Below, in pieces: positions 131 to 39,433 of a stretch of DNA of 39,433 nt. Source of the stretch: a virus; the IMG/VR virus record IMGVR_UViG_3300031999_000084, positions 1-39,433 of that record; one strand, 5' to 3'. How positions within the stretch are numbered: position 1 is the stretch's first letter; the number at the start of each line of letters is the position of its first letter. The notes below the pieces were generated by a model. The model did no database searches. It worked only from the letters and a program-made list of their open reading frames with translations, and was not told the origin of the DNA. A program made the position numbers and the translations under genes.

Positions 131-829
131 ATGGCACGACAACAAAAACTTATAAAGGAAATACCCACTCTTTGGAGGCCAGAGTTTATTCCTTACTATC
201 CGGTAGAGAGGGATATGTATAGATTGAGTTATCGAGAGGCGTTGCTTTACGGGTTTATAAGGCATTTTTTGAAGAATTGCTCGGGGCGGTTTTTCTTTAC
301 CAATGAGCAGTTGAGATATGTGCTTGGCGGGAAGCGGAATACAACCGCATCCGAAACGGTGTCGAAATTGGTTGAGAAATGCCCAGAGGTGTCAGTAAGC
401 TATATAATCAAGAAAGATGGAGGGAAAATCCGCTATATTGGGTATGTTAATGCGAATCCCGACTTACGGAAAAGCGGAAGTCCGACTTACGGAAAAGCGG
501 AAGTAATAGAGAGTACTATAAAGAATACTATAAGAATAAGAGAGAACTTTGATAAAAACATAGAAATTAAGAGGGAAAATCAGAATTACACTCTTTTGGC
601 GGGTGAACGGGCGAAGTTTATTGATTACTGGACCGAGAAATCCCCTAATGGAAAGAAGGAACGCTGGGAGTTTGAAAAAGTGTTTGACATCAAGCGCCGG
701 TGGGGAACATGGTTGCGGAACGTGGAGCGCCGGATGCAACCAACTCCCTTTGTAAAGGAAACGGATCGGGGGTCAAGGGGCGGCGGGATGCAGAAAATTG
801 CCATAATTCACCCAATTTCAAAAGGGTAG
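131..829 (+). CDS. replication-organiser / DnaD-like DNA-binding protein (candidate replication initiator)
   Basis: The 232-residue protein has an N-terminal part (about residues 25-105) that reads as a winged helix (YREALLYGFIRHF, LRYVLGGKRNTTASETVSKL). After a variable low-complexity linker comes a C-terminal segment with FIDYWTEKSPNGKKERWEFE and FDIKRRWGTWLRN. That W-rich C-terminal signature recurs in phage replisome organisers and DnaD-like initiators. It starts 3 nt after the methyltransferase stop with no Shine-Dalgarno site (TAATCTATGG). The linker is encoded by an exact 23-bp tandem repeat followed by an AT-rich stretch, the arrangement seen when a phage origin lies inside its initiator gene (lambda O is the classic case). 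No helicase or primase was found. The function is inferred from domain layout and position. Confidence 0.6.
   Translation: MARQQKLIKEIPTLWRPEFIPYYPVERDMYRLSYREALLYGFIRHFLKNCSGRFFFTNEQLRYVLGGKRNTTASETVSKLVEKCPEVSVSYIIKKDGGKIRYIGYVNANPDLRKSGSPTYGKAEVIESTIKNTIRIRENFDKNIEIKRENQNYTLLAGERAKFIDYWTEKSPNGKKERWEFEKVFDIKRRWGTWLRNVERRMQPTPFVKETDRGSRGGGMQKIAIIHPISKG
459..504 (+). repeat. exact 23-bp tandem duplication (iteron-like) inside the replication gene
   Basis: Bases 459-481 and 482-504 are identical (core CGACTTACGGAAAAGCGG). Because 23 is not a multiple of three, the two copies are read in different frames, giving DLRKSG then TYGKAE, so DNA rather than protein sequence appears to be conserved. 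An AT-rich stretch with a second short direct repeat (TACTATAA, about 515-535) follows. This is compatible with iterons plus an unwinding element, but there are only two copies. Confidence 0.6.
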
Positions 830-872
830 CAATCCGAGCGTGTATTTATGCCACTTATTTATCCCCTTTTGT

Positions 873-900
873 TTGACATCGCCTTGCGTTTCGTTATAAA
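873..900 (+). promoter_or_regulatory. sigma-70-type promoter for the sigma region 4 gene
   Basis: A perfect -35 box TTGACA (873-878) lies 16 bp from TATAAA (895-900). The start codon of the next gene is 11 nt after the -10 box, leaving little room for a leader. No Shine-Dalgarno sequence is visible. Confidence 0.65.
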
Positions 901-910
901 CTTATAGCAT

Positions 911-1159
911 ATGGAAAACATCGTAGACGTAATCCGGGCGATGCACAAGACATTACCATTGTTGCTTCCCCGCGAACGTGCGGTTATCGAGATGCGGTTC
1001 GGGATAAAACTTGACCGCCCCTCGACACTTGAGGAAGTCGGCAGGCATTTTGGAGTTACGCGCGAGCGCATCCGGCAGATTGAGGCGAAGGTTCTCGAAG
1101 AAGTGTTGGGTAAAATGTCGCAGCAATCATTAAAGAATGGGTCATTGTGTAAAATATGA
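911..1159 (+). CDS. stand-alone sigma-70 region 4-like protein
   Basis: The 82-residue protein is essentially only the C-terminal domain of a primary sigma factor. It contains [17 protein letters not shown], then [23 protein letters not shown] (about residues 39-60), which is the region 4.2 helix-turn-helix that reads the -35 box and contacts the RNA polymerase beta flap. Regions 1 to 3 are absent and the reading frame leaves no room for them. It has its own good promoter (TTGACA/TATAAA), and its stop overlaps the next start (ATGA). It could compete with the host sigma factor for the beta flap, act as an activator tethered at -35, or work with a split sigma. Family assignment is confident; role is inference. 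Confidence 0.85.
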
Positions 1160-1287
1160 AAAACTTACTCCTCGCTCCGATTCTTTGGTTGATTGACTCC
1201 ATCCTTGAAAATCAAAGGGCGTTAAAATTAAGCGGCTGGTTCGATAACGACAATCGGTGCCACGAAATAACCAATGTGTATCTATGA
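1156..1287 (+). CDS. small hydrophobic-start protein, unknown
   Basis: This 43-residue open frame starts [17 protein letters not shown], a short hydrophobic stretch, and ends [20 protein letters not shown]. It overlaps both neighbours by 4 nt (ATGA at 1156 with the sigma-like gene, ATGA at 1284 with the next gene). That double overlap is the main reason for believing it is translated. I do not recognise a family. Confidence 0.5.
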
Positions 1288-1763
1288 CCAAACCAAAGTT
1301 CTACTGGCATATCCACCACGATGTTCTCCTTGAACCCCTGACCGAACCCATCAAAAACAGGATTAAGTTCATTAAGGAGAACAAAGACGAAATAGAATTG
1401 CGCTTAAAACTGATGAAACCAGTCAAAGGAGAGTTGCCGAAGGAACTCAAGGAACTCCTTGAGGCGGGGAAGGAGCGGGATGAGGCGGGGAAGAAGTTGG
1501 ATGAGGCGTGGAAGAAGCGGGATGAGGCGTGGAAGGAGTGGGATGAGGTGGGGAAGAAGCGGGATGAGGTGGGGAAGGAGCGGGATGAGGCGGGGAAGAA
1601 GTTGGATGAGGCGTGGAAGAAGTGGGATGAGGCGGGGAAGGAGCGGGATGAGGCGGGGGAGAAATACCGCAAACAAATCCTCGCCCTCCACAAAAGAGAA
1701 TGTCCCAACTGTCCTTGGTCTGAAAAAGAACAGACGATATTTCCCAAAAGCCACCAAAAGTAA
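1284..1763 (+). CDS. heptad-repeat coiled-coil protein with CxxC-PW tail
   Basis: The 159-residue protein has an N-terminal head ([19 protein letters not shown]), about ten consecutive 7-residue repeats of the type EAGKKRD / EAWKKLD (residues 60-129) and a tail ALHKRECPNCPW..TIFP. The heptads predict a long, highly charged helical rod, and the CPNC motif could bind zinc. I recall similar proteins with different repeat units but the same Cys-Pro-Trp tail from other phage and metagenome sequences; their function is unknown to me. A longer GTG start at 1257 exists, but ATG 1284 overlaps the previous stop (ATGA), the common junction here. The stop lies in a 23-bp segment that recurs exactly at 5676-5698. 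Confidence 0.75.
   Translation: MTKPKFYWHIHHDVLLEPLTEPIKNRIKFIKENKDEIELRLKLMKPVKGELPKELKELLEAGKERDEAGKKLDEAWKKRDEAWKEWDEVGKKRDEVGKERDEAGKKLDEAWKKWDEAGKERDEAGEKYRKQILALHKRECPNCPWSEKEQTIFPKSHQK
1461..1670 (+). repeat. 21-bp minisatellite, about 10 units
   Basis: Ten in-frame 21-bp units (consensus core GATGAGGCGGGGAAGAAG) encode the heptads of the coiled-coil protein. Units differ by single bases that change Gly/Trp, Lys/Glu and Arg/Leu/Trp at fixed positions. Copy number is likely to vary between relatives by slippage or recombination. Confidence 0.9.
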
Positions 1764-1772
1764 AATAACTCT

Positions 1773-2498
1773 ATGAAAAAGAAAAACAAAGGAAAGACGG
1801 TGCAGAAAACAAGACTTGTGGTTAGAAACGCATATAGCATCAACAATCCATCTCAGATGTCCGCGATGGCCATAATACTCAAGCAGCACATTCTTAAGAA
1901 CAATCTGTATACCAACATCGCGGGCAAAAACTATGTTCACGTCGAGGGGTGGCAGTTCGCCGGAGGGCTTCTTGGAACGTTGCCGCGAGTAAAAAGTGTT
2001 GAAAATATATCAACCGAGCAAGAGGTGAAGTGGAAAGCCGAGGTCGAGATAGTGAATGTCGCAACCGGCAACATCATAAGCACGGGCTTTGCTGTGTGTT
2101 CAAACAAAGAAGCCAAGAAGAAATCTTTCGACGAGTATGCCATCCTCTCGATGGCGCAGACGCGGGCGATAGGAAAGGCGTACCGGAATGTTATCGGGTG
2201 GGTAATCAAACTCGCCGGATATGAGGCAACACCGTCCGAGGAAATGGTGAAGATAGGAATGACTCAAGATGTAACGCAAGCGTTGGTCCCCACAGCACAG
2301 TCAGCGAATGGTGGGCAGATTACCGAGAAAGAAGCGGAGGAACTTTTGAGGGTTGCAATTAGTAAGGGGTTTACCTCAAAGGCGAAGTTTATTGCCGGAG
2401 TTAGCCGCCTCTTAAAAATCAAAATCAAAAATCTAACCTCCCTCACCAAGAGTCAAGCGAATACGGTGCTGGTTGAATTATTAAGGAAGGGAAAATAA
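1773..2498 (+). CDS. putative single-strand annealing / recombination protein
   Basis: The 241-residue protein has a conserved middle: GKNYVHVEGWQFAGGLLG, a beta-rich section (VKWKAEVEIVNVATGNIIS), then SFDEYAILSMAQTRAIGKAYR (about residues 118-138) and a GWVIKLAGYEATP segment. The C-terminal 60 residues look like a separate small helical domain. The 'AQTRAIGKA.RN.lGW' pattern is like the helical core of phage single-strand annealing proteins. The next gene, 1 nt downstream, is a PD-(D/E)XK exonuclease, the normal partner in Red-type recombination pairs. No signature proves the biochemistry; the assignment rests on this pairing and general resemblance. Confidence 0.55.
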   Translation: MKKKNKGKTVQKTRLVVRNAYSINNPSQMSAMAIILKQHILKNNLYTNIAGKNYVHVEGWQFAGGLLGTLPRVKSVENISTEQEVKWKAEVEIVNVATGNIISTGFAVCSNKEAKKKSFDEYAILSMAQTRAIGKAYRNVIGWVIKLAGYEATPSEEMVKIGMTQDVTQALVPTAQSANGGQITEKEAEELLRVAISKGFTSKAKFIAGVSRLLKIKIKNLTSLTKSQANTVLVELLRKGK

Positions 2499-2499
2499 T

Positions 2500-3219
2500 A
2501 TGGCGAAAATTGCCACTCCATATAAAGGAATAACGATAGAGTTCGACGAGGAGAAGCATCGCTATACCATCAATGGCAGGATTATTGTCTTTGTTACTCA
2601 GGTTACAGGGATTATAGACAAATCGGGTCCGCTTATCGGTTGGGCGGTCAAATTGTTCCGCGAGTTCTTATTAAAAAAACTCAACGCTGGCGAGCCGATA
2701 ACCGAGGAGGCAATCCACGAAGGGTCAAGACAGCACGCCATCAAGAAACAGGAAGCGGCAGATATCGGCACTCAAATCCACGAGTGGGTCAACCAATACA
2801 TCACCGGGAAGAAGCCCCCCATACCGGAAATTGAGCAAGTCAAAAATGGCGTGCTGGCGTTCCTGAAATGGATTGACGAGAACAAGGTTAAATTCCTCGC
2901 CTCGGAGGAGATTGTCTATAGCAAGAAGCACGACTTTGCCGGAATCCTTGATGCGGAAGCGATAGTAAACAAAGAGCGTTGTATTGTGGACTTCAAATCC
3001 TCAAATGGAATTTATAATGAGATGTTCTACCAAGTTGCCGCCTACCAATGTGCCAAAGAGGAGATGACCAAGAAGAAGTATGACACTCGGTGGATTATCC
3101 AGTTTGGAAAGGACACTGGAGAGTTCATTGCCCATAGAATTGACGATTACAAACGCGATCTGTCGGCTTTCTTGGGTGCGCTCGCAATTAAACGCAGGGA
3201 AATAGAGTTAAAAATGTGA
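2500..3219 (+). CDS. PD-(D/E)XK nuclease, RecB/Cas4-like exonuclease
   Basis: The 239-residue protein shows the motifs of the RecB/Cas4-type PD-(D/E)XK fold in order: GTQIHEWVN with H94, SEEIVY near residue 137, FAGILDAEA with D151, CIVDFKSS with D164 and K166, and the YQVAAYQ motif (Q178, Y182). This set of metal- and DNA-binding residues defines phage recombination exonucleases that resect double-strand ends. It follows the putative annealing protein after a 1-nt gap (TAATATGG), so the two form a likely Red-like module. No Cas4-type iron-sulphur cysteines are present. Confident for the fold; substrate polarity is not visible. Confidence 0.88.
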   Translation: MAKIATPYKGITIEFDEEKHRYTINGRIIVFVTQVTGIIDKSGPLIGWAVKLFREFLLKKLNAGEPITEEAIHEGSRQHAIKKQEAADIGTQIHEWVNQYITGKKPPIPEIEQVKNGVLAFLKWIDENKVKFLASEEIVYSKKHDFAGILDAEAIVNKERCIVDFKSSNGIYNEMFYQVAAYQCAKEEMTKKKYDTRWIIQFGKDTGEFIAHRIDDYKRDLSAFLGALAIKRREIELKM

Positions 3220-3323
3220 TGAGGGCTGAAAGCATTAAAGGGAAAGCTGGGTTGAGCGGAGGCGGGGTTCGCCGCAGCCGATATAATGGCAAATGGTTAG
3301 CCTTGCCTCCCTCGACTTGGTGA
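3219..3323 (+). CDS. small basic open frame, unknown
   Basis: The 34-residue frame MRAESIKGKAGLSGGGVRRS...WLALPPSTW starts in a TGATG overlap with the exonuclease stop and ends 6 nt before the next gene. It contains a GC-rich hairpin and a TATAAT (3282-3287) without a properly spaced -35, so this stretch may instead be a regulatory spacer. Position is the only support. Confidence 0.3.
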   Translation: MRAESIKGKAGLSGGGVRRSRYNGKWLALPPSTW

Positions 3324-3329
3324 AAGATT

Positions 3330-3599
3330 ATGTCGAGCCTTAAGGTGATACTGTACAACAAAATAAGGGGTGCATATCCCATTCCTATTCACGGAGGAGC
3401 GATAGAAAAGATGAGCATAGATTATGGGTACAAAGCAAGCAATGGAAGCCGCCGGTGCCGGGAACTCGTGAACATGGGATTGATTGAGCCGATATACGAG
3501 AAGGGTTTCGTGCTGTATAAGTGGATACCGCCCAAAGAGAAAACTTTTGAGGAGTTGGAAGCGGAACGTCAGGGGTTATTGATACGGGCAATACAATGA
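3330..3599 (+). CDS. small winged-helix DNA-binding protein
   Basis: The 89-residue protein has the pattern of a compact winged helix. A recognition-helix-like stretch (IDYGYKASNGSRRCRELVNMG) is followed by a beta wing (LIEPIYEKGFVLYKW) and an acidic helix (KTFEELEAERQGLL). Similar short proteins are common next to phage recombination genes, probably as transcription or DNA-replication accessories. Its stop overlaps the start of the HNH gene by 4 nt (ATGA). The specific role is unknown. Confidence 0.6.
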   Translation: MSSLKVILYNKIRGAYPIPIHGGAIEKMSIDYGYKASNGSRRCRELVNMGLIEPIYEKGFVLYKWIPPKEKTFEELEAERQGLLIRAIQ

Positions 3600-3979
3600 G
3601 AAAGATAAAAATAAGCGGGCTGGACCATCTCTTCGGGGTTGCAGTGAAATGCCGTGACAAGTGGCAGTGTCAACGGTGTAAGGCGAGATTTGCTCCGTTT
3701 GAACTATATAGTTGTAGGGCATTACATTGTTCTCATTATATTGGGCGGGCGAACAAGAAGACACGGTATAATTTTGCGAATTGTACCGCTCTCTGTTATG
3801 GATGCCACCAATATTTTGAAACGCACAAGGGAACTGATTATAGGGACTTTATGATAAAACGGTTAGGGCAAGAGGGTTACGATGAATTTATAAAAGAGTC
3901 GCGGGAGAAAGTGCTGTTTGACGATAAGGCAAAGAAGGACGTAGCGGAAATGCTTAAAAGGGTAATGAGGGAAATATGA
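3596..3979 (+). CDS. NinG/Rap-like HNH endonuclease-type recombination protein
   Basis: The 127-residue protein has a zinc-finger pair CQRC (C25, C28) and CYGCH (C67, C70, H71). Between them LHCSHYIGRANKKTRYNFANC carries the HNH His and Asn. It ends with YFETHKGTDYRDFMIKRLG, matching the C-terminal pattern of lambda NinG (Rap), which cleaves Holliday junctions and other branched DNA in recombination. It sits directly downstream of the exonuclease/annealing pair, consistent with that role. It overlaps the next gene by 4 nt. The HNH family is confident, NinG-type function likely. Confidence 0.8.
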   Translation: MRKIKISGLDHLFGVAVKCRDKWQCQRCKARFAPFELYSCRALHCSHYIGRANKKTRYNFANCTALCYGCHQYFETHKGTDYRDFMIKRLGQEGYDEFIKESREKVLFDDKAKKDVAEMLKRVMREI

Positions 3980-4341
3980 AAGATCCGCAAGCAACTGACT
4001 CATACTACGTGAAACTCTCCGGGAAGGCATCTCTCCCCGAACCACTTGAGATTGGGTCAAATTATCATATCTCAATCGAGGGGGCGATAACCGGAAAGGA
4101 TGAAGATGACAATGACGATGGAACACACTCTCACTCATTCAAGTTTAAGCCGGTGATTGTGGAAATCTTGACTCCCAAAGGAAAGACCATTAAAGCCCGC
4201 GATGTCCGCAAAAGGTCGCAACAGCTCCACTCGGCAATTTGGAAAGAGTGGACGGTAGCGGGTGACAATAGTGACCAAGAGGGGTACTACGACAAGCGGA
4301 TGGTCGGCATTATTCAAGGCGTAATCAACGGCACGATATGA
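3976..4341 (+). CDS. conserved phage hypothetical protein
   Basis: The 121-residue acidic protein opens with YYVKLSGKASLPEPLEIG and a beta-rich segment (YHISIEGAITGKDEDDND..HSHSFKFKPVIVEIL), followed by a helical tail containing RKRSQQLHSAIWKEW and MVGIIQGVI. I recall this layout from hypothetical proteins in other phages, always among recombination and replication genes, but no function is known to me. It overlaps its neighbours by 4 nt on each side. Confidence 0.6.
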   Translation: MKDPQATDSYYVKLSGKASLPEPLEIGSNYHISIEGAITGKDEDDNDDGTHSHSFKFKPVIVEILTPKGKTIKARDVRKRSQQLHSAIWKEWTVAGDNSDQEGYYDKRMVGIIQGVINGTI

Positions 4342-4433
4342 CCCGTGAACTCTTACTCTTGCTTATCGGGTGTGGTATAATGGTCGCAAGCGTACTCTAT
4401 ATCGCACTTTGTTTCGCGGGGATTATCAATTGA
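4338..4433 (+). CDS. 31-residue single-span membrane peptide
   Basis: The frame MTRELLLLLIGCGIMVASVLYIALCFAGIIN is one continuous hydrophobic helix and starts in an ATGA overlap with the preceding gene, ending 4 nt before the next. Such tiny membrane peptides are frequent in phage early regions. A promoter-like extended -10 (4371-4381) lies inside it. Whether it is translated is unproven. Confidence 0.45.
   Translation: MTRELLLLLIGCGIMVASVLYIALCFAGIIN
4371..4381 (+). promoter_or_regulatory. extended -10 promoter TGTGGTATAAT
   Basis: TGTGGTATAAT matches the TGTGnTATAmT form found at four other places in the window. Transcription would start near 4388 and give a leader of about 50 nt before the beta-helix repeat gene. 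No -35 box is evident. Confidence 0.45.
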
Positions 4434-4437
4434 AATC

Positions 4438-5478
4438 ATGAAAACAATAATCGTCAAGAACCAAAAAGAGTTCGATAAAATAAAAGATACCTTTGAGGGT
4501 AGAATAGAGATTGTCGGTGCGTTGGAAAGGATAAATCGCTGTATCCCGAAGGCGGAGATTTGTGTCTTCGGCTTCGCCACCATCAAGTACGTCTACGGCT
4601 CCGCCACCATCAAGTCCGTCTTCGACTTCGCCACCATCGAGTCCGTCTCCGACTCCGCCACCATCGAGTCCGTCTACGACTTCGCCACCATCAAGTCCGT
4701 CTACGGCTCCGCCACCATCGAGTCCGTCTCCGACTCCGCCACCATCGAGTCCGTCTCCGACTCCGCCACCATCAAGTCCGTCTTCGGCTCCGCCACCATC
4801 GAGTCCGTCTACGACTTCGCCACCATCAAGTACGTCTTCGGCTCCGCCACCATCAAGTACGTCTACGGCTCCACCACCATCAAGTCCGTCTCCGACTCCG
4901 CCACCATCAAGTCCGTCTTCGGCTCCGCCACCATCAAGTACGTCTTCGGCTCCGCCACCATCGGACTCATGTTCGGCTTGGCGGTAGTATTATTTGTGTC
5001 GGGAACCGCGAAAGTAACTACCAAGGGAAGAAATATTGTTAGGCACTACAAATCAGAAAGAAATATCACGCTCTCTCTGTCGAAAGAAACCACCCATATT
5101 ATAATGCCCAAAATTGAGATGAACTTGAGAGAGTACCAAATCCAATATCCGCACGAAACAAAAGGAAGCAAATTAATACTCTATAAGAGCGTTCACAAGA
5201 AGGATGGGCGATATTCCTCCGAAAATACAAGGGACTTCGAGTATAAAATCGGGGAAACTTACACGGAGAAAGTCGTTAAAAACGGCGAAAGTTGCGGGCA
5301 AGGATTACACGTGGCACATAAGAAATGGGCGATTGACTTTGGGAAGGGGTGGGAAGACGAAGCGTTGCTGGAGTGCGAGGTTGACAAGAAAGGTATATAT
5401 GTCGCACCTGATTGCGATGGGAAAATCAGAGCACCGAAAATCAAAATAGTAAGAGAAGTTCCAAAAGAGGAATGGTGA
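4438..5478 (+). CDS. nonapeptide-repeat (beta-helix-like) protein with conserved C-terminal domain
   Basis: The 346-residue protein has a short head (MKTIIVKNQKEFDKIKDTF), about 15 tandem 9-residue repeats of the form SATIKSVYG / FATIESVSD (residues 46-180), then a globular C-terminal domain. Alternating Ile/Val and small residues in each repeat suggest a regular solenoid such as a parallel beta-helix. The C-terminal part (LILYKSVHKKDG.., YKIGETYTEK, CGQGLHVAHKKWAIDF, ALLECEV, KIKIVREVP) resembles a domain I know as DUF7666, found in many phage proteins behind short repeats. Function is unknown. The repeats are GC-rich against an AT-richer C-terminus. A promoter-like box precedes the gene. 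Confidence 0.75.
   Translation: MKTIIVKNQKEFDKIKDTFEGRIEIVGALERINRCIPKAEICVFGFATIKYVYGSATIKSVFDFATIESVSDSATIESVYDFATIKSVYGSATIESVSDSATIESVSDSATIKSVFGSATIESVYDFATIKYVFGSATIKYVYGSTTIKSVSDSATIKSVFGSATIKYVFGSATIGLMFGLAVVLFVSGTAKVTTKGRNIVRHYKSERNITLSLSKETTHIIMPKIEMNLREYQIQYPHETKGSKLILYKSVHKKDGRYSSENTRDFEYKIGETYTEKVVKNGESCGQGLHVAHKKWAIDFGKGWEDEALLECEVDKKGIYVAPDCDGKIRAPKIKIVREVPKEEW
4573..4977 (+). repeat. 27-bp minisatellite, about 15 units
   Basis: Units of 27 bp (each beginning TCC/TTC GCCACCATC) run head to tail. The last one or two are degenerate (GLMFG, AVVLFVSG). Variation is confined to a few codons: AAG/GAG, TCC/TAC, TCC/TAC/TTC and GAC/GGC. The other two forward frames stay open through the array, so longer overlapping frames here are artefacts of the repeat. 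Confidence 0.92.
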
Positions 5479-5510
5479 AATAGTAATTCGGTGCACCCCG
5501 AAATAACGAT

Positions 5511-5690
5511 ATGAGGAAACTCTATGCAGTGAAAATAACAAAGAAAAAACTTGCCTTTCTTTTGACTGCTTTTGATATCGTTGAGGATAAGCACGAACGG
5601 GCGCGGTTGATGGCAAGGATTTTGAGTAGATTATCAGCTATGGGATTCTGGGGATATAAGAAAGATAATCGGCAACCAAAAGTAAAATAA
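5511..5690 (+). CDS. small basic protein, unknown
   Basis: The 59-residue frame MRKLYAVKITKKKLAFLLTAF...RARLMARILSRLSAMGFWG ends within the 23-bp segment shared with 1754-1776. It is helical and basic, with no motif I recognise. It fills the gap between the repeat protein and the YopX gene and starts 32 nt after the previous stop at GATATG. Length, helix-forming composition and placement support it moderately. Confidence 0.5.
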   Translation: MRKLYAVKITKKKLAFLLTAFDIVEDKHERARLMARILSRLSAMGFWGYKKDNRQPKVK

Positions 5691-5694
5691 CTCT

Positions 5695-6048
5695 ATGAGA
5701 GAAATAAAGTTTCGGGCGTGGGATAGCATAGCAAAGACAATGTGGCAAAATGTTCATTTTGACTACGCTCACATTTATTCTGATAAGTGGAACGAGAAAA
5801 CTGAAACTTGGTTGGGTAGCTTGCCGATGCCATTGGGGATTCTTATGCAATTCACTGGCCTCAAAGACAAGAACGGAAAGGAGATTTATGAGGGGGATAT
5901 AGTAATTTTTGACTATCCAATGGAGGTTATTTGGGATATGGGAAGTTGGACGGTTAAAACTCAAAAAGGGAGTTCGCTTCTTTATGGATATATTACGGAT
6001 GGAGAAGTCATTGGCAACATCTACGAAAACCCCGAACTATTAAAATAA
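5695..6048 (+). CDS. YopX-family protein
   Basis: The 117-residue protein is a clear YopX domain: it starts MREIKFRAWDSIAKTMW and carries LMQFTGLKDKNGKEIYEGDIV in the middle, with VIGNIYENPELL at the end. YopX proteins are very common in phages of Gram-positive and other bacteria, but their biochemical role is not known. The start follows the preceding stop by 4 nt in the recurring TAACTCTATG context. Length is normal for the family. Confidence 0.93.
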   Translation: MREIKFRAWDSIAKTMWQNVHFDYAHIYSDKWNEKTETWLGSLPMPLGILMQFTGLKDKNGKEIYEGDIVIFDYPMEVIWDMGSWTVKTQKGSSLLYGYITDGEVIGNIYENPELLK

Positions 6049-6052
6049 CTCT

Positions 6053-6127
6053 ATGACCATAGAACAACTGATTTATCCGAGAACTATCAAGGTCGGCAAC
6101 CGAAATAACATAGAGATATGTACATAA
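6053..6127 (+). CDS. 24-residue open frame, doubtful
   Basis: The frame MTIEQLIYPRTIKVGNRNN.. follows the YopX stop by 4 nt in the same TAACTCTATG context and overlaps the next start by 10 nt. The start context is the only support; it may be the remnant of a gene or a coupling peptide. Confidence 0.25.
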   Translation: MTIEQLIYPRTIKVGNRNNIEICT

Positions 6128-6492
6128 CCAAACGGGGCAAAAATCTAATAGTATCCATACCCTTAAGGCAGGAGAGCTATAACGCTCTCGGCGAGCGCAT
6201 AGGCATCGTTCCGAATGTAGTCGGGGTGATAGTAAAAGGCAAGGATGACAGTGGGATGTTTGAGCAGGGGATCTATCGTCTCAATGAGTTGGGATACAAA
6301 AACGACATCCAGCTTGGTATGCCAATCGTAATGACGTGTATGGAAGATGATGAGTTTGTAGTGCTCTGTAAGAAGTTGGGTATAGATGTTTGGGAATACC
6401 GAAAATGCGCGAAGTGTGGTAATACTTTGTTTGGGACACACACAATAAATAACAATGGCGAACTTGTGTGTCGTGGTTGTGAGGATGAATAG
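6118..6492 (+). CDS. hypothetical protein with C-terminal zinc ribbon
   Basis: The 124-residue protein has a beta-rich N-terminal part (MYITKRGKNLIVSIPLRQ.., VVGVIVKGKDDSG) and a C-terminal zinc-ribbon-like pair, KCAKCGNTLFGTH and CRGCEDE (two CxxC about 20 residues apart). A link to nucleic acids is suggested only by the ribbon. It is the last gene before the structured RNA locus: its stop lies at the first boxA-like element, so one transcript may carry both. Confidence 0.6.
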   Translation: MYITKRGKNLIVSIPLRQESYNALGERIGIVPNVVGVIVKGKDDSGMFEQGIYRLNELGYKNDIQLGMPIVMTCMEDDEFVVLCKKLGIDVWEYRKCAKCGNTLFGTHTINNNGELVCRGCEDE

Positions 6493-6680
6493 CTCTTTGA
6501 GAATTGCGTATTGAGTGTCGGGGTCGGCGGGAAAGAAAGCCGCATAGCGTCAGCGATGCCTTGGGCAAGTAAGTGAGAATCCTGATGGCTAGCCTAAAGT
6601 GCGAGGTGACTCACTCCACAAATCATCTACTTATAGGAGAGATGGTAGACAAATCCTCGCCCCCGACATCCAGTACACAA
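6492..6680 (+). ncRNA. boxA-led structured RNA 1 with long closing stem
   Basis: GCTCTTTGAGAATTG at 6492-6506 resembles boxA antitermination elements of rRNA leaders. Bases 6504-6523 pair with 6661-6680 over 20 positions (18 pairs including two G-U; mismatches C6507/A6677 and A6514/C6670). Inside are further helices: GCGAGG (6600-6605) with CCTCGC (6655-6660), AGTGAG (about 6573) with CTCACT (about 6610), GCAT/ATGC around 6542-6558 and ATCATCT/AGATGGT. There is no credible open frame. The layout is that of a rRNA precursor with a processing stem, but the enclosed about 137 nt match no RNA I recognise. It shares its opening 25 nt and its 3' CCAGTACACAA with RNA 2. Confidence 0.6.
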
Positions 6681-6833
6681 CAAAAGAGTGCGTTTGGTAA
6701 ATTAGCACTTTCCGCTACATTGCCGAATCGCACCGAAACAGTACCTTTACAGATTGCGCGGTGCGGGTAGGAAAGCGACCTCAAAACGAGACCCCCGCCC
6801 CTATTCTCACCGCCCAGTCCATAAAGGACTGTT
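6681..6833 (+). other. structured spacer between the two boxA RNAs
   Basis: This 153-nt stretch holds no convincing gene. It contains a hairpin AGTGC/GCACT (6687-6691 with 6705-6709), a two-part helix GCGGTG (6758-6763) with CACCGC (6808-6813) around CGGG/CCCG (6764-6767 with 6794-6797), and CAGTCC-ATAAA-GGACTG (6815-6831) directly before the second boxA. It may be a third processed RNA. Confidence 0.4.
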
Positions 6834-7001
6834 GCTCTTTGAAAATTGTGTATTGAAGTGGAGGTTTGTGTGGGGTAAGAATTCAGACCCTATTACCGCC
6901 AGTGCGCACGGAAGCGGGGAAATGCGTTGACCGTTAGGACAATGGCGCCCCGTGATAACTCTACGAAGCGGAAAACACAAACCCCCTCTCCAGTACACAA
7001 T
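6834..7001 (+). ncRNA. boxA-led structured RNA 2 with 27-position closing stem
   Basis: GCTCTTTGAAAATTG (6834-6848) repeats the boxA-like element. Bases 6845-6871 face 6975-7001 across 27 positions with only three mismatches (A6856/C6990, T6859/T6987, A6862/C6984). The A/C mismatch six pairs after TTGYGTA is also present in RNA 1, so it may be a recognition feature. Internal helices include GGGT/ACCC (about 6873-6890), CACG..GGGG with CCCCGTG (about 6907-6953) and the small hairpin TTGACCGTTAGGACAA (about 6927-6942). The 3' strand can alternatively form GTACACA/TGTGTAC (6993-6999 with 7005-7011). Confidence 0.6.
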
Positions 7002-7014
7002 TCCTGTGTACCGT

Positions 7015-7030
7015 AGCTCTTTGACAACCC
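7015..7030 (+). promoter_or_regulatory. third boxA-like element upstream of the island operon
   Basis: GCTCTTTGACAACC repeats the core GCTCTTTGA of the two RNA loci and lies 20-35 nt before the first island gene, ahead of its AAAGGAGG ribosome binding site. It could load NusB/S10-type antitermination factors for the operon. An alternative reading as a -35 box (TTGACA at 7021) lacks a matching -10. Confidence 0.45.
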
Positions 7031-7049
7031 AGACAGAAAGGAGGAAATA

Positions 7050-7220
7050 ATGAAAGAAACGGCTGACGTGAAAAGGGAAGTCTATGTCGTCTGCTGGTAC
7101 TGCGGCTGGACGGTGATTATTCCGAACTGTCCGGTGACGGTGGATTTTCTCCCTGTGCGCTACCGCATCTGCGGCGTGTGCAAACTGAAAGGAGGGGAAG
7201 ATGAGAAAGCGCAGAAATAA
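7050..7220 (+). CDS. small zinc-ribbon protein
   Basis: The 56-residue protein contains CWYCGW and CGVCK, two CxxC pairs about 30 residues apart around a beta-rich core (VYVVCWYCGWTVIIPNCPV), the shape of a zinc ribbon. It has a strong ribosome binding site (AAAGGAGG 7 nt before ATG), in contrast to most of the genome. Its last 20 nt overlap the next gene, whose own ribosome binding site lies inside this reading frame. It is the first gene of the GC-richer island. Partner unknown. Confidence 0.65.
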   Translation: MKETADVKREVYVVCWYCGWTVIIPNCPVTVDFLPVRYRICGVCKLKGGEDEKAQK

Positions 7221-8256
7221 CGTCGGGCGGCGGATACCCACGAAAGAGGCGATCAGTGAGGTGATGGCGAGATTGATGCAAGCCGCCAAGCATCTCAATC
7301 CTCTCAAGAGGATACCCCATCCGCGCATCACAAACGGAGGAAGGTTTGACGAGGAGCATTTCGTACTCGTTCTCTCCGACCTCCAAACGGGGCTTCTGAC
7401 CCCGACCTACGACATGGCGGTGCTGAAAGCGAGGATGGAGTACCTTGTGGAGAAGGTACTCAAGATCGTCGCGATGCACCGCAAGTCGCACCCCGTCAGG
7501 AAGTTGTCTATTTTCCTGATAGGGGATGTCGTTCACGGCGAGAGAGTGGGCTTTATGATTGACCTTGACCATTTGGAGCGCGTTGTGCGCGACCAGATGT
7601 TCAACGGCGCAATCCCCGTTCTCTCCTACGCCATCGCGGCGTTCGCGCAGGTGTTTGAGACCGTTGACGTGTTCTGTGTCAAGGGAAACCACGGGAAGAA
7701 CGGAAAGTTCGCCGGGACGACCACGAACTTTGACCTGTTCTCCTACATCTACCTTCAGCAGTTCTTCTCCTCCACCAAGCACGTTACGTTCCATATCTCC
7801 GACACGTTCCATTCCATCGCGGACGTTTCAGGGTTCAAGTTCTTTCTCGTACACGGCGACAACATCCCGATGCACCTGACCCTTCCCTGGTACGGTCTCA
7901 CGACGCGGATGATGCGGTGGAGCGGCTCGGTGGGCGACTTCAACTATCTGGTGTGCGGACACTTCCACGCTCTTTCGTGGATGTTCTGGAACGACAAGCA
8001 GATATTCACCAACGGCACGTTCATCACCGATGATGAGTGGAGCATCGAAAACATCGGGTTGTCCGGCACCTGCGGGCAACTCCTGCTCTCGGTGCATCCT
8101 AAAGTCGGCGTGTCGTTCGTCCGCGCCATCCAGATGCAGAGGGCAATTCCTACCTGCCCTCGCCACCTCGACTACAAGGGTCTCCACAAGCCCCGCACGG
8201 TGTGTGACACCTGCCTCCGTCTCTGGCGTATCCGCCAGAAAGGGGGTGAGCGATGA
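7201..8256 (+). CDS. calcineurin-like metallophosphoesterase
   Basis: The 351-residue protein carries the metallophosphoesterase motifs in order: LSDLQTG (D60, Q62 where D-x-H is usual), IGDVVHGE (G108-D109), KGNHGKN (N163-H164), LVHGDN (H218, D220) and CGHFHA (H254, H256). These bind two metal ions in nucleases and phosphatases of the SbcD/Mre11 and related families. The last 40 residues contain CPRHLDYKG and CDTCLRLW, a possible zinc knuckle. Spacing resembles phage DNA-repair-exonuclease-type members, but the substrate cannot be read. Gln in the first motif is a notable replacement. Strong ribosome binding site (AAAGGAGG); its stop overlaps the next start by 4 nt. Confidence 0.85.
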   Translation: MRKRRNNVGRRIPTKEAISEVMARLMQAAKHLNPLKRIPHPRITNGGRFDEEHFVLVLSDLQTGLLTPTYDMAVLKARMEYLVEKVLKIVAMHRKSHPVRKLSIFLIGDVVHGERVGFMIDLDHLERVVRDQMFNGAIPVLSYAIAAFAQVFETVDVFCVKGNHGKNGKFAGTTTNFDLFSYIYLQQFFSSTKHVTFHISDTFHSIADVSGFKFFLVHGDNIPMHLTLPWYGLTTRMMRWSGSVGDFNYLVCGHFHALSWMFWNDKQIFTNGTFITDDEWSIENIGLSGTCGQLLLSVHPKVGVSFVRAIQMQRAIPTCPRHLDYKGLHKPRTVCDTCLRLWRIRQKGGER

Positions 8257-9461: not shown

Positions 9462-9471
9462 AATCATTAAA

Positions 9472-9495
9472 AAGTAATTAAGATAAAGAGATGAA
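9472..9495 (+). repeat. gene-junction repeat family B, copy 1
   Basis: These 24 bp, ending in the ATGAA start of the next gene, are identical to 10431-10454; their last 20 bp recur at 9852-9871. With the flanking TCATTA the match to the 10431 copy extends further with a single mismatch. Confidence 0.85.
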
Positions 9496-9862
9496 GTATT
9501 TAGCTGAAACACTACACGAAATAAATAAAGAGAAGCGCAAAGATTGCGCTAAATATCCCGCTTGCCCTAAATGTGGCAATGCTATGGTGTGGACTTTCGC
9601 TTTTAGGGGTTGTGAGTGGGCTTGTTTGCCTTGTGATATAGCAAAGCCGATGTTTTTTGATTGTAAAGAGGTGTGGCGGAACATAAAAGCAATGGATGCT
9701 AAAAAACGAAAGTGGCAAGAGGAACTATCTATTATTTCTCGAAGATTTGGTGGAGGCAAATGTGTTGTTGAGGGTTGCGAGAATGGTAGTTGCGATTGGT
9801 GTAAAAGAGCCGCCGATAAAAATTGTCAATTTAAGTTTTGGAAAAGCAACCAATTAAGATAA
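9491..9862 (+). CDS. cysteine-rich zinc-binding protein
   Basis: The 123-residue protein has CPKCGNAMVW and a following C..LPC, a zinc-ribbon pair at residues about 25-55. A second cysteine cluster near the C-terminus reads CVVEGCENGSCDWCKR. It is clearly AT-richer than the island before it. It starts at the ATG embedded in the junction repeat. Two metal sites suggest nucleic-acid or protein binding; no family recognised. Confidence 0.6.
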   Translation: MKYLAETLHEINKEKRKDCAKYPACPKCGNAMVWTFAFRGCEWACLPCDIAKPMFFDCKEVWRNIKAMDAKKRKWQEELSIISRRFGGGKCVVEGCENGSCDWCKRAADKNCQFKFWKSNQLR

Positions 9863-9871
9863 AGAGATGAA
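9852..9871 (+). repeat. gene-junction repeat family B, copy 2
   Basis: AATTAAGATAAAGAGATGAA is identical to the 3' part of the copies at 9472-9495 and 10431-10454. Here the upstream gene stops at the internal AGATAA, whereas at 10431 the upstream gene stops at the earlier GTAA, so the DNA is kept while the frame differs. Confidence 0.85.
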
Positions 9872-10436
9872 AAGTAAGGAAAATAAAATATGGATAGCCA
9901 GTAACGAAGCCCCTGCTCTTAATACCGGAGAATTGGGTTTTGTTTTTAATCGGGTTTGGGCAATGCCGGATAAGTGGACATTTAAGATACACCCTATTAA
10001 AAATCTATTAACAAAATATGGGGCTGGAAAAGACGGAAAATGGGCAGACCCCTTTTGTGGGATATTAAGTCCTGCAAATGTTACGAATGATATTAACCCC
10101 GAAATAAGAGCAACATATAACACAGACGCACTGAACTTTCTAAAAAATCTTGAAGATAATTATTTTACAGGAATTTTGTATGACCCCCCATATTCGATTA
10201 CACAAGCAAGGGCTTATGGGAGAAAAGAGTTTGCCTCTATGAAGTATTGGGCAGATTGTAAAAACGAAATCGCAAGAGCGATAAAACCCGGTGGATATGC
10301 GATTTGTTTTGGCTGGAATAGTAATGGAATGGGAAAGAACAGGGGATTTTTCTTAAAGGAAATTCTACTTATAGCTCACGGAGGTTCAAAAAACGATACA
10401 ATTTGCACAGTAGAAGAAAAGGTCATTAGAAAGTAA
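9867..10436 (+). CDS. second DNA methyltransferase (DPPY type)
   Basis: The 189-residue protein has WADPFCG (residues 59-65), an AdoMet-binding motif I of the DPFxG kind, and GILYDPPYS (102-110), the catalytic motif of amino-methyltransferases of adenine-N6 or cytosine-N4. A HPIK motif at 42-45 precedes motif I. It is short for the family and lacks an obvious large target-recognition domain, like compact phage methyltransferases. Together with the enzyme spanning the window ends, the phage has two methyltransferases and no visible restriction partner, so protection from host restriction is a likely purpose. It is flanked on both sides by family B repeats. Confidence 0.8.
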   Translation: MKSKENKIWIASNEAPALNTGELGFVFNRVWAMPDKWTFKIHPIKNLLTKYGAGKDGKWADPFCGILSPANVTNDINPEIRATYNTDALNFLKNLEDNYFTGILYDPPYSITQARAYGRKEFASMKYWADCKNEIARAIKPGGYAICFGWNSNGMGKNRGFFLKEILLIAHGGSKNDTICTVEEKVIRK

Positions 10437-10454
10437 TTAAGATAAAGAGATGAA
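10431..10454 (+). repeat. gene-junction repeat family B, copy 3 (orphan start)
   Basis: An exact copy of 9472-9495. Its embedded ATG opens a frame of only five codons (MKLKP), so the gene that once followed this junction seems to be missing or replaced. Confidence 0.85.
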
Positions 10455-10886: not shown

Positions 10887-10988
10887 ATGAAAAAAATTCT
10901 TATTGGGCAAATCAGGTTTTTGCAACTGCCGTCTAGGGGATCAAGTAAGAGAATTACTAATCATAGCCCTAGCGTAGACGGCGGTTGA
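10887..10988 (+). CDS. 33-residue open frame in structured region, doubtful
   Basis: The frame MKKILIGQIRFLQLPSRGSS... follows family C repeat 2 at the same distance as the real gene at 10523. Much of it is covered by inverted repeats, so the DNA may act as RNA structure instead. No similarity recognised. Confidence 0.3.
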   Translation: MKKILIGQIRFLQLPSRGSSKRITNHSPSVDGG

Positions 10989-11050
10989 ACATTTCCGTTC
11001 CTGCCCCCGTACCATTGAAACCGGGCGGGGGCGGGGCGGGCTACAAAACT

Positions 11051-12698: not shown

Positions 12699-12924
12699 TT
12701 GTAACGGGGCGGAGTTCCGGGAAGTTCCCTCTACCAGCATGGGGTCGTTGCTTGAATGCGTGAAGTGCGGGTTGAGGACGGCTTATGGGGCTTCCGGCCA
12801 AGACGTGTCGGGACACCCGAAGCCAATCTCAATGACTGAAGCGCTCAAAGAGGCGAAAGAAGTGGCGCAGACGAAAGCGGAAAAAGAGGCGGAAAAAGCG
12901 AAGGAAGATGCAAAAGGAGATTAA
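12685..12924 (+). CDS. small zinc-finger protein with charged tail
   Basis: The 79-residue protein starts MKCFNCNGAEFREVP and has a second pair CVKCGLRTAYG, together one zinc ribbon. The tail is a charged helix rich in Lys, Glu and Ala. A longer frame opens at 12583, but ATG 12685 places the first CxxC at the N-terminus, as in zinc-ribbon families, with a 14-nt overlap. It overlaps the large terminase start by 17 nt, so the two are probably made together. Confidence 0.6.
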   Translation: MKCFNCNGAEFREVPSTSMGSLLECVKCGLRTAYGASGQDVSGHPKPISMTEALKEAKEVAQTKAEKEAEKAKEDAKGD

Positions 12925-15637: not shown

Positions 15638-15656
15638 TCGCAAATTGACAATCGGT

Positions 15657-15769
15657 AAAACCTTGTGATGGTTGGTGTCGCCTCCGGTTAACCACGGTAG
15701 GCCGAACATTTTACTCACAAGGTTTTTTGTTCGGTTAACCGGAGACGGCATCAATCACGATGCCGTCTC
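15657..15769 (+). terminator. pseudoknot-capable hairpin cluster / terminator
   Basis: Four inverted repeats interlock. AAAACCTTGTG (15657-15667) pairs with CACAAGGTTTT (15716-15726, followed by TT), an intrinsic-terminator form. CTCCGGTTAACC (15682-15693) pairs with GGTTAACCGGAG (15733-15744) in the order of an H-type pseudoknot. CCGAACA (15702-15708) pairs with TGTTCGG (15728-15734). GAGACGGCATC (15742-15752) pairs with GATGCCGTCTC (15759-15769) and precedes an AT-rich tract. All are perfect. The third helix excludes the second, and the fourth overlaps its last bases, so alternative folds are possible. Confidence 0.75.
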
Positions 15770-15789
15770 TTATTAATCAATAAAAATCT

Positions 15790-38817: not shown

Positions 38818-38934
38818 ATGGTCAAAACGGTAAGACAATTTAATACTTTTAGTCACCAGCAGTCCGCTGTTGTTTATGGGTTCTTACCGACCCTGACCGA
38901 CGACAGCGGACTTTTGGTTGCTAAGTATGTATAA
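38818..38934 (+). CDS. 38-residue leader peptide, leaderless
   Basis: The frame MVKTVRQFNTFSHQQSAVVYG... starts at the expected transcription start and ends inside the methyltransferase start region (8-nt overlap). It spans the attenuator-like hairpin, so its translation would decide whether the hairpin can form. No similarity recognised. Confidence 0.45.
   Translation: MVKTVRQFNTFSHQQSAVVYGFLPTLTDDSGLLVAKYV
38857..38916 (+). terminator. attenuator-like hairpin upstream of methyltransferase
   Basis: AGTCCGCTGT (38861-38870) is perfectly complementary to ACAGCGGACT (38903-38912), followed by TTT. ACCA/TGGT extend the stem beyond a 2-nt internal loop, and GGGT/ACCC may pair in the loop. It can act as an intrinsic terminator between promoter and methyltransferase start (38927). 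Confidence 0.65.
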
Positions 38935-39433
38935 AATAGAGGACATCATCAATAAGGTCCACTGCGCGGACTGCCTTGAGTTTATGAAGCAACTGCCCGA
39001 CAAGTGCGTGGATTTGGTGTTGACCGACCCGCCGTATGGGATAAAAATGGATAAGGGATTCGAGGGATTCGAGGGATTCGGAGGATTCGGGACTCCTATT
39101 CCACGTAAAAGATATGAAAACGATGACTGGGATGCAGATAGACCAACCGAGGAATATTTTTCTGAGATGCTTCGTTTAGGGAAAAAAATATTTATATTCG
39201 GTGGTAACTTCTTTGCGGATATTCTTCCCCGTTCAACGCATTGGATTGTATGGGATAAGTTAAACACAATGCCGTCTTTTGGTGATTGTGAACTCATATG
39301 GACGAATGTAGATAGAAAATCAGTGAAGAAAATTACCCACTTGTATAATGGTTTGATTGGAAAAGAGGATTGGCGAGCGCACCCCACCCAAAAACCGTTA
39401 GAACTTTTGAAAAAGATAATTGTGAATTATTCA
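38927..39433 (+). CDS. DNA methyltransferase, N-terminal part (continues at window start)
   Basis: The frame gives 169 residues without a stop to the window end. CLEFMKQLPDKCVDLVLTDPPYG (from about residue 16) carries the DPPY motif of N6-adenine/N4-cytosine methyltransferases. The sequence continues with a short tandem repeat GFEGFEGFGGFG, KKIFIFGGNFFADILP, IVWDKL and ends HPTQKPLELLKKIIVNYS. HPTQKP directly precedes motif I (FxGxG), which is found at base 2. The order catalytic motif then AdoMet motif is the beta class. Downstream across the junction is the replication gene. The orphan enzyme probably protects phage DNA or tunes host methylation. Confidence 0.9.
   Translation, partial: MYKIEDIINKVHCADCLEFMKQLPDKCVDLVLTDPPYGIKMDKGFEGFEGFGGFGTPIPRKRYENDDWDADRPTEEYFSEMLRLGKKIFIFGGNFFADILPRSTHWIVWDKLNTMPSFGDCELIWTNVDRKSVKKITHLYNGLIGKEDWRAHPTQKPLELLKKIIVNYS

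Follow-up and report, generated by a model that had tools for sequence, protein, structure and literature searches.

The question raised by this locus is why a phage genome carries, between its early and late genes, a long untranslated gap with three copies of boxA, and what the two RNAs enclosed there by long helices might be for.

Genome setting of the untranslated gap

The window analysed here is the whole phage record of 39,433 bases. Both ends of the record fell inside one adenine-methyltransferase-like gene (38929-39433 and 1-126), and the splitting of this gene indicates a probably circularly permuted, nearly complete phage genome. Since the gene is out of frame at the joined ends, the record apparently lacks a few bases there. 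Every assigned gene was on the plus strand, to which the features of the gap described below also belong. Early-type genes occupied positions 131-6492 and included a sigma-70 region 4 protein, an exonuclease, a NinG-like protein and YopX. The 82-aa protein encoded at 911-1159 consisted almost entirely of sigma-70 region 4 and is a possible transcription switch factor. The last early gene (6118-6492, 124 aa) encoded a zinc-ribbon-like CxxC..CxxC end, and its TAG stop codon had one base in common with the first boxA, the G of boxA1 being the final base of the stop codon. The first gene past the gap (7050-7220, 56 aa, ATG at 7050) contained two CxxC pairs and was followed by a metallophosphoesterase/exonuclease gene (phrog_284; 7201-8256) at the start of the packaging/late operon. 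TerL was located at 12908, and the genes beyond it are presumed to be structural.

The gap itself (6493-7049, 557 nt) was the longest intergenic region of the genome, the runner-up measuring 349 nt, and boxA was absent from the other untranslated gaps of 290-349 nt. A consensus scan of the plus strand around the gap, from 4451 to 7532, gave no promoter-like sites. With all assigned genes on this strand and no such site near the gap, the late genes are probably transcribed by read-through. An untranslated transcript of the gap would be open to Rho, and boxA-mediated protection would be expected here. Long hairpins were also observed in other intergenic regions (3241-3330, 10930-11045, 15650-15775 and 38837-38920); the region at 15650-15775, in the middle of the late operon, held two hairpins, one of them terminator-like with a T run after it. 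Repeated start-codon contexts, AAATAACTCTATG and AATTAAGATAAAGAGATG, were observed before early and middle genes (5685-5697, 6040-6052, 9471-9492, 9853-9870 and 10435-10453) and had no clear Shine-Dalgarno sequence, in contrast to the GGAGG at 7040.

boxA copies, long helices and the enclosed RNAs

The sequence GCTCTTTGANAA was observed with zero mismatches at exactly three sites in the 39.4 kb, all on the plus strand: boxA1 (GCTCTTTGAGAA, 6492-6503), boxA2 (GCTCTTTGAAAA, 6834-6845) and boxA3 (GCTCTTTGACAA, 7016-7027). CTCTTTGANAA likewise occurred nowhere else in the genome, against a composition expectation of 0.009 per strand, and all three exact copies matched the boxA consensus (N)GCTCTTT(G/A)A. 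The original prediction had listed three copies and placed the first two correctly, while the third begins at 7016 and not at 7015. The first two copies were parts of a 23-nt repeat (6492-6514 and 6834-6856, 91%). boxA3 had no helix after it and ended 12 nt before the GGAGG Shine-Dalgarno sequence (7040-7044) and 22 nt before the ATG. In the predicted fold boxA1 can pair with CAAAAGAG (6681-6688), which possibly masks it.

To score helices, ungapped pairing between the 38 nt that follow each boxA and the next 190 nt was compared with 300 dinucleotide shuffles. The pairing score was 40.0 for boxA1 (shuffles 21.4+-3.1) and 49.5 for boxA2 (shuffles 20.3+-3.0), with 0/300 shuffles as good in either case, and the highest score among 150 positions chosen at random in the window was 30. 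boxA3 scored 19.5 in the same shuffle test, which was not significant. The two long stems of the original prediction are therefore real, with their extents refined to 6504-6526/6658-6680 for helix 1 (20 of 23 positions paired) and 6844-6871/6975-7002 for helix 2 (25 of 28 paired). The 5' arms begin 1-3 nt past CTCTTTGA at boxA1 and boxA2, so that a leader-trailer helix of >17 bp starting after boxA was found at these two copies and not at boxA3.

An A/C mismatch, reported earlier at the same place in both stems, was recovered at 6514/6670 and 6856/6990. The two 3' arms had an exact 12-nt repeat in common, TCCAGTACACAA, which lies at the end of the helix 1 arm and is complementary to the 23-nt boxA repeat. 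The outer parts of the helices were near-identical, mutually complementary repeats, while the inner parts were unlike in sequence yet paired. Inner arms that diverge but still pair provide within-genome evidence of selection on pairing; covariation between species is another matter. At the boxB-like place, short hairpins were observed before boxA2 (CAGTCC/GGACTG, 6815-6831) and before boxA3 (GTACACA/TGTGTAC, 6993-7011), both competing as alternatives with larger predicted folds. In the second of these, GTACACA (6993-6999) belongs to the 3' arm of helix 2 and would pair instead with TGTGTAC (7005-7011), forming a hairpin just 5' of boxA3. The inner end of the helix 2 5' arm was overlapped by TTTGTGTGGG (6865-6874), which has one mismatch to the enterobacterial boxC UCUGUGUGGG; the counterpart in RNA1 was only TGTCGGGG. 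This boxC-like sequence in RNA2 was picked out post hoc and is no more than suggestive.

The helices enclose two cores, RNA1 of about 131 nt (6527-6657) and RNA2 of 103 nt (6872-6974). The length proposed earlier for RNA2 held, while the 137 nt proposed for RNA1 is reduced to about 131. Folded alone, each core had a z of -1.04, no better than shuffles, and the multibranched structure ascribed to the cores is unproven at z of about -1. With cores folding at shuffle level, what stands out is the helix and not the structure it encloses. No Rfam match for the stretch was obtained at gathering score or even at E 5, hence no match to 16S or 23S rRNA, and searches that included intron-bearing forms gave no tRNA or tmRNA, in agreement with the earlier statement that the enclosed RNAs are not recognisable as either rRNA or tRNA. 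RNA1 and RNA2 had no sequence or family in common. The cores had been described as free of open frames, but a 65-aa GTG frame (6573-6770) runs across RNA1; none of the frames crossing the stretch, this one included, had a Pfam match. The strongest-folded part of the stretch, absent from the original prediction, was the segment between the two RNAs (6681-6833, z -8.2). It comprised a hairpin at 6687-6735 (z -5.4) and a long irregular hairpin reaching from RNA1 to boxA2 (6737-6833, z -6.8), which includes the short hairpin at 6815-6831.

The same signal and layout in other genomes

Across a genome collection spanning 84,980 species, seven contigs contained the 23-mer GCTCTTTGANAATTGNNTATTGA. Five of these are from Parvularculaceae, at least three of them running on into 16S rRNA within the sequence retrieved. 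Another copy, with one mismatch to copy 1 of the phage repeat, closely preceded a Paenibacillaceae CRISPR array (L020), which like the 16S leaders is an untranslated RNA, and the remaining site, in a Bacteroidaceae genome, looks unrelated. An alphaproteobacterial signature suggested for GCTCTTTGANAATTG was rejected, as it was present in only 2/58 genomes, one of them a chance coding match.

No DNA homologues of RNA1 or RNA2 were found in phages or plasmids, no strict 23-mer was found in viral contigs, and a search for homologous loci through the metallophosphoesterase neighbour gave none. A pattern combining boxA with the 3' arm had 12 matches in viral contigs, which were unconvincing, being mostly coding or chance. 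With an 18-base motif, viral contigs yielded a boxA-like CTCTTTGAAAATTGTCTATTGAC in a phage leader (L042, L044 and L048), where the helix was not significant. In this other phage group, CTCTTTGAAAATTGTCTATTGAC lies directly past a strong terminator and 5' of a probable structural gene, and may be part of a promoter. TerL relatives with 39-50% identity (L024 and L037-L040) contained no exact CTCTTTGANAA, most of these records being fragments, and they had almost nothing else in common with the phage. A TerL-like remnant (33% identity, E 6e-28), not annotated as a terminase, was observed on a Nitrobacter hamburgensis plasmid (NC_007959.1, 125918-126850; L023).

Viral contigs were also scanned for pairs of boxA copies separated by 137-197 nt. 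This gave 40 loci, mostly coding and near background, and a helix was present in only two. The first (L089, a 42.9-kb record) had a boxA, a 27-bp helix starting 1 nt past CTCTTTGA, an RNA of ~100 nt and another boxA, followed by a phage tmRNA and tRNAs. Its helix was not equalled in any of 300 shuffles, while its core folded at shuffle level (z -0.1). In the second (L060, a 6.1-kb fragment), a 14-bp perfect helix starts 0 nt after boxA and surrounds a 24-codon frame; the second boxA has its own hairpin, and the locus is at an operon head ~2 kb before TerL. Both sequences were unrelated to the phage, with only the boxA-helix-boxA layout in common. Among 795 Bacteroidota and Pseudomonadota genomes, the double-boxA pattern had matches in 4, none of them layout-like, those from Bacteroidota being judged by sequence only. 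A small control scan on the fetched loci, in which one control motif gave 4/122 sites, was too sparse to establish a general enrichment.

Two side observations came from these records. The 42.9-kb record holds two phage tRNA genes on the minus strand (2233-2431 and 2599-2806), each with a 114-121-nt insertion at position 33; these split tRNAs adjoin the phage tmRNA (tag DKNNEYPYQVVNLLAA) and a tRNA-Pro, and the insertions are too short for ordinary group I introns. In a jumbo-phage record of 266 kb (L069), tandem hairpins of ~50-55 nt with long near-perfect stems and GGRTTACA-type loops, making up a repeat RNA, were observed at about 2400-2850.

A proposed rrn-type leader at the early/late junction

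Bacterial rrn leaders contain boxB, boxA and boxC together with the 16S leader-trailer helix, and the rrnTAC includes NusB, S10, NusA, NusG, SuhB and S4. The phage gap resembles such leaders in that boxA precedes each unit and leads straight into a long helix, whose 3' arm lies beyond the enclosed RNA, in the short hairpins 5' of boxA2 and boxA3, and perhaps in the boxC-like TTTGTGTGGG at the inner arm end of RNA2. In E. coli pre-16S the leader-trailer helix exceeds 17 bp and carries boxC in its 5' arm, and boxA suffices for formation of the rrn antitermination complex (PMC10250234). The phage locus differs in enclosing RNAs of 131 and 103 nt instead of rRNA and in its position at an early/late gene junction. 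The rRNA-precursor layout recognised in the original prediction is supported by the boxA copies with their leader-trailer-like helices, by the 23-mer in Parvularculaceae 16S leaders, by the negative searches for known RNAs inside the helices and by the layout in two unrelated phages; its suggestion of an antitermination relay fits the placement of boxA at borders between translated and untranslated RNA.

boxA sites outside rRNA are widespread (PMC5725501). They occur upstream of CRISPR arrays (Stringer et al., as cited in PMC7862264), where expression along the array is about tenfold higher with boxA (PMC7862264). As proposed for the phage, boxA there protects an untranslated transcript, and the Paenibacillaceae array has a near-identical 23-mer; unlike the phage, that array has a single boxA and no leader-trailer helix. 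The HK022 put site is likewise a structured phage leader RNA that allows read-through, and it needs no dedicated protein factor (PMC9378689), but it is an RNA of ~70 nt with two stem-loops, whereas the phage leader is 557 nt long and contains boxA.

Our preferred explanation, which we hold with moderate confidence, is that the 557-nt gap serves as a Nus antitermination leader of the rrn type, whose helices resemble the leader-trailer helix and which possibly releases two small RNAs as well. Counting against it are the failure to find homologues of RNA1 or RNA2, the potential masking of boxA1, the missing helix at boxA3, the boxA-free gaps of 290-349 nt, the TerL relatives (mostly fragments) without boxA, and the restriction of the boxC-like sequence to RNA2. 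Because no rRNA is enclosed, one defining feature of an rrn leader is missing, and the claim is that the gap works like such a leader, not that it is one. Nus binding, antitermination and RNA processing at the leader are what we infer from this arrangement, on the assumption that the host has NusB and that its boxA consensus matches. Host NusB-S10, with NusA, NusG and partners, would bind boxA1 while the ribosomes on the early genes stop at the adjoining stop codon. The complex would make RNA polymerase Rho-resistant and be reloaded at boxA2 and boxA3, allowing the polymerase to traverse the unprotected RNA into the late operon. RNA just past boxA1 and boxA2 may be kept near the polymerase exit and would pair with the 3' arm when this is transcribed, a step modelled on the proposal for the rRNA leader-trailer helix. 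The double strands of the helices are probable RNase III sites, and cleavage there would part early from late mRNA and free both RNAs.

Alternatively, the enclosed RNAs may be the main purpose, the locus producing small stable phage RNAs from an rRNA-precursor-like cassette through boxA transcription and RNase III excision, with access to the late operon secondary. We regard this as possible but clearly doubtful. boxA1 and boxA2 each head their own helix, no protein domain was found inside the stretch, and the cassette of the 42.9-kb record directly precedes tmRNA and tRNA genes, a stable-RNA operon. Against this, the cores of RNA1, RNA2 and the latter record fold at shuffle level (z -1.0, -1.0 and -0.1) and are without common sequence or family, the first helix of the 6.1-kb fragment encloses a 24-codon frame instead, and boxA3 heads no RNA. 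The context in the 42.9-kb record argues for the enclosed RNAs as products, while the chance-level core folds argue for filler. A wider proposal, that unrelated phages use a common 'miniature pre-rRNA' cassette (a leader-trailer helix between two boxA copies) to make and excise new stable RNAs under the host rRNA transcription complex, either alone at late-operon heads or leading tmRNA/tRNA clusters, is about as doubtful.

In T7, RNase III processing elements lie between early genes. The helices and the middle hairpin of the phage gap could similarly be early/late processing or mRNA-stability elements with little role for boxA, as might be suggested by the boxA-less long intergenic hairpins at 3241-3330, 15650-15775 and 38837-38920; we consider this improbable, as it leaves unexplained the three exact boxA copies (two at the borders and one in the middle) and the recurrence of the boxA-helix junction in two phages unrelated to this one. 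Nus-complex use by phages has been described chiefly for lambdoid nut sites, where a phage protein is required. The phage gap is like these in having boxA in an operon leader and in its proposed use of host Nus factors, and it differs in that long-helix arms come after boxA1 and boxA2 and no notable helix after boxA3. A lambda-like nut system, in which an N-like phage protein binds boxA and a hairpin, is very improbable even though phages can carry several nut sites (PMC11893012), since helix arms of 23-28 positions stand after boxA in place of a short boxB hairpin and no N-like arginine-rich protein was recognised among the proteins scanned, a partial set that took in part of the small proteins.

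If the rrn-type leader reading is true, copying the layout of rRNA operons would give this phage a protein-free hand-over of polymerase from early to late genes. Such leaders would also be small and movable, and could serve as model substrates for asking how leader-trailer helix formation is driven by boxA tethering; the enclosed RNAs, if excised, would represent a phage RNA of a new type.
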